Below, piece by piece: positions 798-8,534 of a stretch of DNA of 8,534 nt; within the stretch, counting starts at the first letter, position 1, and each line of letters begins with the position of its first letter. Below the pieces are notes generated by a model that saw nothing but the letters and a program-made list of their open reading frames with translations, did no database searches and was not told where the DNA came from. The translations under genes and the position numbers were made by a program. This DNA is from Chloroflexota bacterium (GTDB taxonomy: Bacteria > Chloroflexota > UBA4733), in contig JANWJO010000034.1 of the NCBI GenBank assembly GCA_025449435.1, positions 1 through 8,534 on the forward strand. Direction: 5' to 3'.

Positions 798-2024
798 CTA
801 CCCGCTCTTAGGTTTGGCGGTTGGTGCGCTGCGTTGGCGTGCGCTTGTTGCCGGCACCTTTTTTGTTGTGGTTTGGTGCACCGTAGCCTTGGCTGGTGCG
901 TGTGTGGCGACGGCGGGCGCCGTGGCACGTTGGGTGCTACTCGCTGGCGAGTGAGCCGAGACCGCGGCTGGCTGCGCGTCGATACCGGCAAATTGCACCG
1001 TGTCGTGTGCTGGAGGGATGCTTGACAGTGCAGTTGACGCGGGAAGTTGCTGGAAAGACGCAAGCTGCACGTCCGACGTGGTTACGGGAGGCGCAGCCTG
1101 GTTGGCCGGCACATGCAAGGCAGTGTTCGCTGGCATTTCGAGCGTGACACGTTGCAGCGTAGCGCGCGGCGCATGGATGAGTTGGTAGCCGCCGATCACT
1201 ATGCAGGCCAGTAACGCCGCGGTGGCTCCATAGACCTTGATCAGGTGACCGAGCCGCTGCATCCGGCGTCCCACCGGGCGCCAACCGCGTCTTTGGGCGC
1301 CATCACTCGATACTTGGTGGGGCAGCGAGTGATCCCGGGCAAGCGCAGTACTCAACCGGCGCAACGCGGTGTTCGTCGACGCTAGCGACGGCGCGGCGGC
1401 AGCCATCTGCTGGCCCAGCAAACGTTGCACGCGCGCAAGTCTTTGGTACTGGCGCGGCTGCAGTTGGTCGTCGGCGCCTGCCAGCAGGGATGTAGCTATT
1501 GAACACAGGGCGGACACGTCACGGCTGCGTGCTGTTCCCGTCGCTGGACCTACCGTCCGGTCGAACCCGATCAGTTTGACCTCGGCTTTGGCAGATACGA
1601 TGACGTCCTCGGCGACAAAATCGCCGTTCACAAAACCGCTGTCGTGGGCCATCTGCAGCGCTGCTGCGATGTCGGCGGCCAGCCTCACTCGCTTTGGAAG
1701 GGTTGCCAACGCCGGGCCGTTCCAGAGTCGAGGCAGAGGTGTCCCGGCGTGAAATGGCCGCACCGTATAGGCGGTGCTGTGGTGGACGCCAAAAGCAAAG
1801 GGCAGCAGCGCAGCAGGGCCGCTGGATGGTCGCCGGTGTAGCTTGGGGAGCGTACGCCAGTTGCCTGCCTGCGCCTGGAGCGGCCATAACCGCAAGCACA
1901 CCAAGGCTCCGGAGCGCACGTCCGACGCGACACACACCTGGGAAGTGTTGCTACCGCCCAATCGCTTGAGCACCTGATAGCGATCCCCATAGAACTCGAG
2001 ATCAGAGGAAATGCTCGTAATCAT
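798..2024 (-). CDS. membrane-anchored protein kinase-like protein, probable pseudokinase
   Basis: The protein has 408 aa. Residues 14 to about 230 follow the bacterial Ser/Thr kinase (Hanks) fold: YQVLKRLGGSNTSQV (16-30) replaces the Gly-rich loop, LVCLRLW (41-47) the VAIK strand, and GFVNGDFVAEDVIV (130-143) the HRDLKPEN loop. KLIGFD (150-155) stands where KLIDFG is expected. The ATP-binding Lys is Arg45, the HRD Asp survives as Asp135, catalytic-loop Lys and Asn become Val137 and Asp140, and DFG becomes GFD. Only about 14 residues separate this from the alpha-F-like segment DVSALCSIATSLLAG, so the activation loop and APE motif are missing. One membrane helix (about 264-283) follows, then an extracytoplasmic tail of about 125 residues rich in Ala, Thr, Pro and Ser. 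Phosphotransfer is therefore unlikely; a binding or scaffold role is inferred. The start has only a weak GGG-type ribosome site. It lies 108 nt downstream of the polyprenyl synthase gene. Confidence 0.85.
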   Translation of the reverse strand: MITSISSDLEFYGDRYQVLKRLGGSNTSQVCVASDVRSGALVCLRLWPLQAQAGNWRTLPKLHRRPSSGPAALLPFAFGVHHSTAYTVRPFHAGTPLPRLWNGPALATLPKRVRLAADIAAALQMAHDSGFVNGDFVAEDVIVSAKAEVKLIGFDRTVGPATGTARSRDVSALCSIATSLLAGADDQLQPRQYQRLARVQRLLGQQMAAAAPSLASTNTALRRLSTALARDHSLPHQVSSDGAQRRGWRPVGRRMQRLGHLIKVYGATAALLACIVIGGYQLIHAPRATLQRVTLEMPANTALHVPANQAAPPVTTSDVQLASFQQLPASTALSSIPPAHDTVQFAGIDAQPAAVSAHSPASSTQRATAPAVATHAPAKATVHQTTTKKVPATSARQRSAPTAKPKSG

Positions 2025-4199: not shown

Positions 4200-4925
4200 A
4201 TGACTAATCGCCGTGGACCTGCCTGGCTGGCTAATGCTCCCCGTCCGTTTTGCTCCGGCCACCGCGGCGCCGGCGGGCTCGTGACGCCAAACACGCTGAA
4301 ATCGTTTCAACATGCGCTGGATATCGGCTGTTTTCTGGTGGAGACCGATGTCCGCACCACCAAGGATGGCGCACTCGTGCTATTCCATGATGATGCGCTG
4401 CGCTGGAATGGCAAACTGCACCCCATCAGCACCCTTACGCTCGAGGGGCTGCGCGCGTTCCCGCTGCCCGATGGGCTGCATATTCCTACTTTGGAGGAGG
4501 CATTGCCGCTGTTCCGTCAGCGCGGTGTCGCGCTGCTCGACATCAAGGGCGTGGGCTTTGAACAGGCGATGGCGCACGCTGTGGCCGCGTCGGGCATCCC
4601 TCAAGCCATTGTATGTGGTGAACCGCTGTCCTCCATCATGGCGACGCACGCAGCCAACCCGGCGATTGCCACGTCGCTCACACTGAACCGTCCGGAGCTA
4701 GCGAACCTCACGCCAGCACAGATCGATGCCGTGCCTACCGATATGGTGACGGTGCAAGGGTCGGGAATGACGCGCGACCTCGTCACCGCGTTTCAAGCGC
4801 GCGGTATCTCAGTGACCGTCTGGACTATCGACGAGGAACAGCACATGCGCACCCTCCTCGAGTGGGGGGTCGATGGCATCACCACCAACCGCCCGGATGT
4901 GCTCCTGCGCGTCCTCGGACGCTGA
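4200..4925 (+). CDS. glycerophosphodiester phosphodiesterase (GDPD) family protein with altered metal-site motifs
   Basis: The family hydrolyses glycerophosphodiesters to glycerol-3-phosphate and an alcohol. This 241-aa protein has no signal peptide, so a cytosolic (UgpQ-like) role is expected. Conserved elements are GHRGAGG (His21, Arg22), LVETDVRTTKDG (Glu48, Asp50), LFHDD (His63), PTLEEAL (96-102), VTVWTID (205-211) and GVDGITTNRPD (223-233). Two motifs differ from the usual pattern. APENTLxAF reads VTPNTLKSF with the Glu gone, and the LEIK-type metal Glu is Asp114 in LLDIKG. Both catalytic His residues remain, so activity may be kept or shifted. The ATG follows GGCAGGG about 8 nt upstream. 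It begins 44 nt after tRNA-Val without an obvious own promoter, and ends 7 nt before the next start. Confidence 0.92.
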   Translation: MTNRRGPAWLANAPRPFCSGHRGAGGLVTPNTLKSFQHALDIGCFLVETDVRTTKDGALVLFHDDALRWNGKLHPISTLTLEGLRAFPLPDGLHIPTLEEALPLFRQRGVALLDIKGVGFEQAMAHAVAASGIPQAIVCGEPLSSIMATHAANPAIATSLTLNRPELANLTPAQIDAVPTDMVTVQGSGMTRDLVTAFQARGISVTVWTIDEEQHMRTLLEWGVDGITTNRPDVLLRVLGR

Positions 4926-6041: not shown

Positions 6042-6127
6042 AGTCGTCGTCCTCGATAACCTTTCACCAGCCACCCCACATCCCCCAATCATCTTGCATT
6101 CATTCGACCCTCCAACAACCCAGCATA

Positions 6128-6133
6128 TATACT
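6128..6133 (+). promoter_or_regulatory. -10-like TATACT, candidate promoter of the Rhs toxin gene
   Basis: TATACT lies in an ATATATACT context, the same hexamer as in the tRNA promoter. No good -35 is found 16-19 nt upstream, so use would need an activator. The start would be near 6140, giving a leader of about 195 nt. Confidence 0.35.
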
Positions 6134-6146
6134 CCCGCGCTGACGG

Positions 6147-6158
6147 AGCAAGCTTGCT
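6147..6158. repeat. 12-bp perfect dyad AGCAAGCTTGCT near the predicted Rhs start site
   Basis: The dyad falls about +7 to +18 relative to the start predicted from the -10 at 6128-6133. That is a classical place for a repressor to bind. No regulator gene is present in the window. Confidence 0.4.
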
Positions 6159-6286
6159 TTGCATCGCACCGCTTGCCCCCGGAAGGGTTCTCCCATGCGC
6201 ACCCATCGCCTCGCCCATTGCCTACTTACCAACCTAACGGCGTTTAATCCCCTCCCCATGCCACCGCTCGCTCGCTAACGCCTAAC

Positions 6287-6318
6287 CCGGACCGCAAGCG
6301 GCTGCGCTTGCGCACCGG
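6287..6318 (+). promoter_or_regulatory. stable leader hairpin next to the Rhs ribosome binding site
   Basis: CGCAAGCG (6293-6300) and CGCTTGCG (6305-6312) form an 8-bp perfect stem with loop GCTG. A 2x2 internal loop and an outer CCGG/CCGG stem (6287-6290 with 6315-6318) extend it. The AGGA ribosome site (6324-6327) begins 5 nt after the outer stem and the ATG is at 6335. No T-run follows, so control of translation or RNA stability is more likely than termination. Confidence 0.5.
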
Positions 6319-6334
6319 CTGGCAGGAACGCACC

Positions 6335-7684
6335 ATGACCAGCATGAACACTCCTGGCTTCGCCCGCCTGTTCCGAGTGCTGTTGCTCGTCCAGCTCCTC
6401 CTGACCGGACTGGCCCTCAACCCTACACCGGTGGCCGCCAGCGCGGTGTTCACCAGCGTCCCAGCCGATCCCGTGAGCCTGCTGCCCAGCGGTCCCGTGC
6501 TCGGTGGGTCGCAGCTTAGGTGCGTTGCCGGCAACCATGTGCTTCCGCTCACGGCACCGGTGACGGGAACGGTGTCCTATGGCTACGACGCCGTGAGCCG
6601 GCTGACCAGTGCGACCTACCCCAACGGGGATGGCGAGCGGGTGAGCAAGAGGGTGGCGGGTAGCAACACGAGCTACGCCTGGGACCCCGCCGGGATCGGG
6701 CACGTGCTGGCCGACAGCAATGGCTACCAGTATGTGTGGGGAAACGGGCTGGTGAGCCAGGTGACCAACCTCAACACCCAGCGCTACCCGTTGGTGGATG
6801 GCCTCGGCAGCAGCCGGGTGCTCATCGGCAGCAACGGGCGGAGCATTGGGACCCAGACGTATGACGCTTTCGGCAGTGTGCGCAGTACCAGTGGGACCAC
6901 CCTACCCTTTGGCTTCGCCGGAGAACAGACTGATCCCGAGAGCGGGCTGACTTACCTGCGCGCTCGCTACCTCGACCCCACCACTGGCCGGTTCTTGACT
7001 AAGGACCCAGCGCCCTCTGAGTGGGTGTATGGCTACGCCAACGATAACCCGGTGCTGGGCACCGATCCGACTGGCCAGGCGATGGTCGCTTGTGACACCG
7101 ATTGTGGCTCGTCACCGGTGTGGATTGATCCTGTGCCGTGGGAGGGCGCCTCGTCCACCGACGAGGCAGCACCTTCAGCGGCACTCACCTGGTCCAAACC
7201 AGACAGTGGCTGGCAACCGAAGTACGTACCGCCAGCCGCACCAGAGGACCCCCCGATACACACCTGCGCCGATGTGAACCCCTTCGAGAAGCTCTTTTGT
7301 GGTGTGATCAACGTGGACCCCGTGCCCAACGGTTTCTGCGCGCTCAATCCAGTGCTCGTTGGTGGACAGGGTGATTTCGGCGGCAGAGGCAGCGGTGAGT
7401 TCAACTTTGGCAGCAAGGATATCCTCCTGAAACGCTTCAACGACCACGGGCACGAGTTCGATTTCATCTCGCCGACGGACTACTTGCGGGCCGCAAGGAA
7501 GCTGTTCGCGGGTGGAAGAGGCGTCGAGATCGTTCCACGGCTTCAGAGTGGTGAGTGGCTGTACTATCGCACCAGGACTGAGGAGTTCGGGATTCTCGCT
7601 GCCGACCGGCGGACGATCCTAACGTATTACAAGGCGAACGCGTTCCATTGGAAGGAGCAGGTAGCGAATGCCCCACGAGAGTAG
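6335..7684 (+). CDS. short exported Rhs-core protein with a C-terminal toxin-like domain
   Basis: The protein has 449 aa. Residues 1-37 are a signal peptide (hydrophobic run at about 12-28, likely cut after AAS-A37). Only one YD-like motif remains (YGYDAVSRLTSATYPNG, 82-98), joined directly to DGERVSKRV. The Rhs core follows: YPLVDGLGSS, YDAFGSVRS (176-184), PFGFAGEQTDPESGLTYLRA (191-210), RYLDPTTGRF and TDPTG (243-247). A Cys-, Pro- and Trp-bearing linker spans about 248-360. The C-terminal domain (about 362-449) contains FNDHGHEF, PTDYLRAARKLF, a TRTEEFGIL strand, and TILTYYKANAFHW. In known systems the DPxG core end marks release of a variable toxin. The HG...EFG...TYYK arrangement resembles small BECR-fold RNase toxins; that is inference from memory of the pattern. 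The ATG at 6335 follows AGGA and opens the signal peptide; a TTG at 6308 lies inside the leader hairpin. Typical Rhs proteins exceed 1000 aa, so this one is very reduced. Confidence 0.88.
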   Translation: MTSMNTPGFARLFRVLLLVQLLLTGLALNPTPVAASAVFTSVPADPVSLLPSGPVLGGSQLRCVAGNHVLPLTAPVTGTVSYGYDAVSRLTSATYPNGDGERVSKRVAGSNTSYAWDPAGIGHVLADSNGYQYVWGNGLVSQVTNLNTQRYPLVDGLGSSRVLIGSNGRSIGTQTYDAFGSVRSTSGTTLPFGFAGEQTDPESGLTYLRARYLDPTTGRFLTKDPAPSEWVYGYANDNPVLGTDPTGQAMVACDTDCGSSPVWIDPVPWEGASSTDEAAPSAALTWSKPDSGWQPKYVPPAAPEDPPIHTCADVNPFEKLFCGVINVDPVPNGFCALNPVLVGGQGDFGGRGSGEFNFGSKDILLKRFNDHGHEFDFISPTDYLRAARKLFAGGRGVEIVPRLQSGEWLYYRTRTEEFGILAADRRTILTYYKANAFHWKEQVANAPRE

Positions 7685-7686
7685 GC

Positions 7687-8151
7687 GTGGAGGATTCAAC
7701 CATCGCCACTGAATCGATGGACTTGTTTGAAAATCTGTCTGAACAAGAGCGTGTCCTGGTTGCAAACGTCATCACGCAGGAGTGGGGACATCCACAACCA
7801 CGAATCACACTTGCCTCGCTACTGTTCCACTGGCGTAGACGCGTCGCGACACTCGTCGAAACGTATGCGATGTCACTCGATGATTTTACCCTCGCGCTCT
7901 CTGAGCGCGATACGCTGGAGGAAGTGCGCCTTGCTGGCGGCTTCCCTCTGCGCGAGCGCCTAGGGAAGGCACTGGAGGCGGCGGACGCACAGTTCCGGTC
8001 GCGCAGCGTGGAGGTGGCCAGACCTCTTATGGGCACGGCTCCGCAACGGTGGTGGTGGTATCGCGTCCCGGTGTTGCGCGGTGCGGACATCAACCGACAA
8101 CTGGCGGTGCGCAACCTGCTGCCGCCGGTGTCTGATGACGTACGTTCGTAG
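7687..8151 (+). CDS. probable immunity protein for the Rhs toxin
   Basis: This 154-aa protein starts 2 nt after the toxin stop and has no signal peptide or membrane helix, as expected for a cytosolic immunity protein. It is acidic and helical in the first two thirds (LSEQERVLVANVITQEW, LFHWRRRVATLVETYAMSL, DDFTLALSERDTLEEVRLAG). An aromatic patch, RWWWYRVP (121-128), follows. I do not recognise a named immunity family; the role is inferred from position and size. Start choice is uncertain. GTG at 7687 is used here. A strong GGAGGA lies at 7689-7694, after that GTG and about 22 nt before the ATG at 7717; it is correctly spaced only for an ATC codon at 7702. Tight spacing to the toxin gene implies one mRNA and translational coupling. 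Confidence 0.72.
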   Translation: MEDSTIATESMDLFENLSEQERVLVANVITQEWGHPQPRITLASLLFHWRRRVATLVETYAMSLDDFTLALSERDTLEEVRLAGGFPLRERLGKALEAADAQFRSRSVEVARPLMGTAPQRWWWYRVPVLRGADINRQLAVRNLLPPVSDDVRS

Positions 8152-8160
8152 AAAGGTGTT

Positions 8161-8418
8161 ATGGCGTACACGCATCTGCCTTGGTCCAAGAAACAGCGTG
8201 CGGCTGCAGACCTGAGCTGCCTAACCTTCAACGAAACCGCTCAGGGTGTGCTAGGGACGCTGCCGGATTGGCGTAAGCCCCCACCTGCGCGTTGGCCACT
8301 TAGGTGGGCTGGGGAGGGTTCGCGAACTCAAGGGTGCGCGCAAGCTCTGCGGTGCCCATCCTGCCCTTTGGCTTTGCGGGCGAACGGAACGATACCGGTA
8401 GTGGTCCGGTGTACCTGA
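8161..8418 (+). CDS. short unrecognised ORF after the immunity gene (doubtful)
   Basis: The 85-aa frame starts at an ATG preceded by AAAGG at good spacing, 9 nt after the immunity stop. The first 40 or so residues (MAYTHLPWSKKQRAAADLSC, then LTFNETAQGVLGTLPDW) could be real. From about 8304 the frame runs out of register over a decayed Rhs-core fragment and through a hairpin, giving a Pro/Arg/Cys-rich tail. It may be a broken gene or a spurious frame; no function is suggested. Confidence 0.25.
   Translation: MAYTHLPWSKKQRAAADLSCLTFNETAQGVLGTLPDWRKPPPARWPLRWAGEGSRTQGCAQALRCPSCPLALRANGTIPVVVRCT
8276..8310. terminator. imperfect hairpin downstream of the toxin/immunity pair
   Basis: AGCCCCCACCT (8276-8286) pairs with AGGTGGGCT (8302-8310) as a 9-bp stem with one bulged C and a 15-nt loop. 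There is no T-run, so intrinsic termination is doubtful. It separates the immunity region from the decayed Rhs core and could also mark a recombination boundary. Confidence 0.3.
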
Positions 8419-8426
8419 AGACTTGA
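8304..8426 (+). pseudogene. decayed fragment of a second Rhs core
   Basis: Read in one frame, 8319-8420 gives FANSRVRASSAVPILPFGFA then GERNDTGSGPVYLK, which matches the core of the upstream gene (FGSVRSTSGTTLPFGFAGEQ then TDPESGLTYLR). The frame has a TAG at 8301-8303 and a TGA at 8424-8426, and no start or full core. Nucleotide match is partial (the CCCTTTGGCTT block is shared), so it is a diverged paralogue rather than a fresh copy. Orphan core fragments of this kind are known from Rhs loci that swap C-terminal cassettes. Confidence 0.7.
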
Positions 8427-8534
8427 CACGTAGACCAGCGGCGGACCAATTCCATTATCGGGGCATTCGACGAGCAAACGTGTGGTTGCCTTATATTCGG
8501 CCAGGCCTTCTGCGAGAAAATGATGGCACTCCCA
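8427..8534. other. right edge, no assigned gene
   Basis: After the Rhs-core fragment I can support no gene. The plus strand stays open in the fragment's frame to the edge (ending EKMMALP). The minus strand is open from the edge down to a TGA at 8328-8330 (68 codons, including HHFLAEGLAEYKATTRLL). Either could belong to a gene outside the window, such as a second toxin tail, but the evidence is length alone. Confidence 0.2.

Follow-up and report, generated by a model that had tools for sequence, protein, structure and literature searches.

The 3' part of an 8,534-nucleotide stretch of DNA from a Chloroflexota bacterium (contig JANWJO010000034.1; the whole stretch is hereafter the window) encodes two adjacent proteins that, on balance, we interpret as a polymorphic-toxin locus, in which a contracted Rhs protein of the export type would carry a colicin-D-like BECR ribonuclease at its tip, and the acidic, helical protein encoded next to it would be the immunity protein. 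Here, we infer the export, the contraction, the ribonuclease activity, and the immunity. Neither the pairing of this toxin with this neighbor nor an exported Rhs protein lacking the shell was found in the literature surveyed, which was a small, open-licence part.

The toxin gene (6335..7684, + strand; ATG start at 6335, stop at 7682-7684), with an AGGA-type ribosome-binding site 8 nucleotides upstream of the ATG, encodes a protein of 449 amino acids, and the gene for its 154-amino acid neighbor (7687..8151, + strand; GTG start at 7687, stop at 8149-8151), a candidate for a non-CPCC immunity protein, starts 2 nucleotides after the toxin stop on the same strand. Both frames are as a preliminary description of this DNA had given them.

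The toxin domain

The C-terminal domain of the 449-amino acid protein (residues 361-449; 7415..7681, + strand) had previously been described as an unassigned tail with a motif arrangement like that of small RNase toxins. The likeness to such toxins is borne out, whereas the tail need no longer be considered unassigned, given that a profile search places it in the colicin-D-like BECR family, in agreement with the motif and the predicted fold. A hidden Markov model (HMM) of 13 relatives, with the window sequence excluded, scored the tail at 51.3 bits, compared with 11.4 bits for the highest-scoring of 5,000 shuffled versions, so that the similarity exceeds chance; the window sequence was itself among the queries of the searches that collected these relatives and those used for the neighbor (below). 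The tail is basic, with an isoelectric point of 9.4, and the residues H371xxE374, Y383, Y411, T415, and T430xxK433 include both the Hxx[ED] and the [TS]xxK motifs of colicin D (H371-E374 and T430-K433, respectively). The predicted fold, in which helices precede a four-stranded meander, agrees with the 8EY4 type. The Pfam model of colicin D does not match the tail up to E 10, the only hit being to an unrelated model at E 0.15.

Judged by profile and motif, then, the tail is a member of the structurally known, 8EY4-type colicin-D-like BECR family. By analogy, the domain would be a ribonuclease, most likely a tRNase: colicin D and the colicin-D-like CdiA toxins of strains EC3006 and Kp342 are tRNases according to the available excerpt of PMC9086364, as is the BECR toxin YxiD in that of PMC12700104, which makes tRNA the likeliest substrate.

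The neighbor as a candidate antidote

Elsewhere, this tail is common to CdiA-like, DNRLRE/Rhs, and HINT-type carriers, and an immunity gene of the CPCC kind adjoins the toxin in 22 of the 30 distinct toxin loci (duplicates counted once, L009 and L051 with L007, and L058 with L006; L056, at 15.9 bits, excluded as a chance match; the weak matches L003 and L057, at 24-28 bits, kept among the 30 as loci without CPCC), which are not independent because L002, L007, and L008 are near-identical, and four sequences of which had seeded the CPCC profile that was later tested on them. Outside the Bacteriovorax phylum, the proportion is 21 of 23. The CPCC gene follows the toxin gene in 21 of the 22 cases and, in L054, sits in a longer frame just upstream. 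The window contains no CPCC frame, and the neighbor, when compared with the CPCC immunity family (PF14206), has no Pfam match up to E 10 and no cysteine in its sequence. Because the usual CPCC partner is missing from the window, either it has been replaced by an unrelated antidote or the neighbor is not an antidote. The position of the neighbor, the spacing, and its acidic character, opposite to the charge of the basic toxin tail, favor replacement, and on these grounds, the neighbor may be the antidote.

The single-chain structural model of the neighbor (predicted local distance difference test, pLDDT, 82.0) is nearly all helical and has no clear match in the PDB. A profile built from the neighbor and one protein of a Streptomyces plasmid, A4, retrieved 56 proteins, of which all that are named come from Streptomyces or other actinobacteria. 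An HMM of 55 relatives, gathered with that two-row profile and built with the neighbor excluded, scored the neighbor at 42.8 bits, whereas the best of 2,000 shuffles reached 9.3 bits; hence, the neighbor is a real protein, a distant relative of a functionally uncharacterized actinobacterial family (P0004-P0058) with members in, for example, Streptomyces and Embleya. Some of the relatives adjoin transposases, and one, on a Streptomyces plasmid (L005, 2435-2881), is flanked by an IS3 transposase and an Imm21 immunity gene.

Several observations weigh against the interpretation of the locus as a toxin with its antidote. The model of the toxin domain has a pLDDT of 70.8 and was built on just four sequences; a PDB search with the window tail alone misses both 8EY4 and colicin D; and the [KH]K motif that precedes the histidine in colicin D is not kept, with R367 and F368 in its place. 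Furthermore, this kind of toxin is absent within 2.5-3.5 kb of the relatives of the neighbor in all 11 plasmid loci inspected (12 plasmid records were found, and H25 was left out), and a relative of the neighbor occurs in 0 of the 30 other toxin loci, so that the pairing has been seen once. Finally, a broken second Rhs core downstream fits a decaying site.

The possibility that the neighbor is not the immunity protein of this toxin, being either a gene with no relation to it or an orphan immunity gene directed against some other toxin, brought here by chance recombination next to a toxin that has no dedicated antidote or is inactive, is a real contender, although we judge it less probable than immunity. 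The solitary relatives, with their transposases and the Imm21 gene, speak for it, as does the consistent association of the toxin with CPCC and not with this family. The preliminary description had itself named, as signs against the pairing, a neighbor that appears widely without the toxin and forms no predicted complex, and, as to the first of these, relatives of the neighbor do stand without the toxin in the plasmid loci. On the other side, the neighbor starts immediately past the toxin stop, on the same strand, and has the opposite charge; the excerpt of PMC5727410 reports that, in Snodgrassella alvi, toxins are never found without their immunity gene; and the solitary relatives carry limited weight, because immunity genes standing alone are described as usual, in polyimmunity loci by PMC3482391 and likewise by PMC5727410. 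A bolder proposal, in which the neighbor founds a new all-helical immunity family for colicin-D-like RNase toxins, one that replaced CPCC, the actinobacterial relatives are free-standing antidotes to toxins of this kind, and the shell-less exported Rhs protein works, seems possible to us but doubtful.

A putatively secreted Rhs protein without its shell

The 449-amino acid protein has two of the features by which Rhs polymorphic toxins are recognized, namely, an Rhs-associated core (residues 176-248; 6860..7078, + strand; TIGR03696, E 8.1e-19), closed by a DPxG motif, here DPTG (residues 244-247; 7064-7075, + strand, read in the translation), and a variable C-terminal toxin domain, which is separated from the core by a linker with five cysteines (residues 248-360; 7076..7414, + strand). 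The N-terminus (residues 1-36; 6335..6442, + strand) is, by hydropathy, of the export type, with a mean Kyte-Doolittle value of 2.42 over residues 15-25, and is followed, after about 40 residues, by a single YD/RHS repeat (residues 75-98; 6557..6628, + strand; PF05593, E 8.3e-5); a multi-repeat YD shell enclosing the toxin was not found in the protein. The core, the signal peptide, and the near absence of the shell had all been anticipated from the sequence; the core and the near absence of the shell are upheld, and so is the signal peptide in the sense of an export-type N-terminus.

How the shell may have been lost can be glimpsed in the remaining repeat. In an alignment with three long Rhs proteins, residues 87-98 (6593..6628, + strand) are 12 extra residues relative to two full-length comparators, the third being uninformative because its alignment starts only at residue 92. 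The surplus looks as though the beginning of one YD repeat had been fused to the final part of the last repeat, and this hybrid repeat makes an in-frame contraction, with residues 87-98 as the candidate joint, probably the simplest account of the removal of the shell. An assembly artefact, in which the assembly merged copies of repeated YD sequence or ran two Rhs genes together such that the short gene is not real, appears improbable: the protein is known from one contig, the surplus falls within a YD repeat, and there are two Rhs cores in close proximity, but the joint leaves the frame intact, and 6100-8534 shows no long exact direct repeat.

The second of these cores, a remnant with an internal stop (8334..8435, + strand), was found by tblastn of the 449-amino acid protein against the flanks (17 of 34 residues identical, E 2e-6 in the tiny database of the window flanks), 180 nucleotides downstream of the neighbor gene and near the contig end, which identifies this as a rearranging Rhs site. 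It can also be read as evidence of a displaced or decaying Rhs tip, that is, an undeployed short module left by recombination, which stores the toxin cassette and retains the adjacent immunity gene. The excerpt of PMC5727410 describes C-terminal displacement accompanied by truncated, orphan Rhs genes, and short forms are common: among the 76 Rhs-core frames that pass the cut-off in 40 Paenibacillaceae genomes, 23 are shorter than 500 amino acids. However, the frame is open across 449 codons, the toxin motif residues are intact, and the export-type N-terminus is retained, whereas none of the 16 short frames whose N-termini were read (out of 23; 4 of the 16 are open at the 5' end, and the comparison crosses phyla) matches its strength, the best reaching 1.85 against 2.42. 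We thus regard a decaying tip as rather unlikely and retain in-frame contraction of a secreted Rhs gene as the preferred account. The combination is unusual in that the Rhs shell is gone, yet the putative export signal and the toxin motif are kept.

The preliminary description considered the missing cocoon a puzzle. The shell is indeed missing, but the puzzle is diminished because short, shell-less export-type carriers of the same toxin domain exist elsewhere: L032 (judged by eye), L052 and L054 in Bacillota, and six more in the Bacteriovorax phylum (L058-L062 and L064).

Other carriers and the surroundings of the locus

Some of these carriers merit description in their own right. In the Bacteriovorax phylum, L058 (from Bacteriovorax itself), L059, L060, L061, and L064 encode export-type proteins of about 170-460 amino acids with a colicin-D-like end and no adjoining CPCC gene; it is tempting to speculate that, in these predators, secreted RNases serve prey digestion rather than strain rivalry. 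L032 (MT836265.1, 6208-9414), filed as 'Bacteriophage sp.' from human faeces, pairs a colicin-D-like toxin of the export type with a CPCC immunity gene and looks like a bacterial chromosome rather than a phage; the reading frames around the toxin are, by eye, presumably folD and argG. The L054 carrier starts with TTG and is possibly a lipoprotein, as its export-type N-terminus contains a cysteine, and in L012 (1-1773), the carrier frame opens with hydrophobic segments.

The upstream part of the window consists of ordinary genes, encoding DAHP synthase, polyprenyl synthetase, TatD nuclease, tRNA-Val, GDPD, and a HEAT-repeat protein. As listed, the frame of the last of these shares 53 nucleotides (4873-4925) with the end of the GDPD frame, and its true start may lie further downstream. 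On the opposite strand, 798-2024 (-) encodes a 408-amino acid protein with a hydrophobic segment and a trace protein-kinase match (E 0.35), possibly a degenerate kinase.

Proposed mechanism and relation to known systems

Under the interpretation favored here, nearly the whole YD shell of a secreted Rhs gene would have been removed, probably via in-frame contraction, and the gene would still produce a protein of the export type that ends in a colicin-D-like BECR ribonuclease domain. The toxin chain would be exported by Sec, a route that requires no cocoon inside the producer because the exported chain leaves unfolded. Any toxin that did fold would be captured by the acidic cytosolic neighbor, which would bind the basic domain and protect the producer, taking the role that a CPCC immunity protein usually plays in this toxin family. 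After release, the ribonuclease domain would enter the cytosol of a neighboring cell and cut RNA, most likely tRNA, halting translation in the competitor.

A toxin tail that appeared unassigned can now be placed in a structurally known RNase family that rides on diverse carriers, CdiA-like, full Rhs, HINT-type, plain export-type, and here, a shell-less Rhs protein. The locus isolates a case without the usual CPCC antidote and makes it testable whether an Rhs toxin works without a cocoon; moreover, if the neighbor is the antidote, actinobacterial genes of unknown function gain a testable role.

Compared with colicin D and ImmD (PDB 1V74, 1TFO, and 5ZNM), both the carrier and the neighbor differ, the latter having no match to ImmD. 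The complex 8EY4, a contact-dependent inhibition toxin with its immunity protein from E. coli O32:H37 (chains A and I), has a CdiA carrier and a CPCC immunity chain, whereas the window has a shell-less Rhs carrier and a neighbor that is not a CPCC protein. The truncated, displaced Rhs tips of Snodgrassella alvi, as far as the excerpt of PMC5727410 describes them, are similar in combining an intact core and toxin with a truncated Rhs protein and an adjacent gene; the protein in the window differs from them by keeping its export-type N-terminus.
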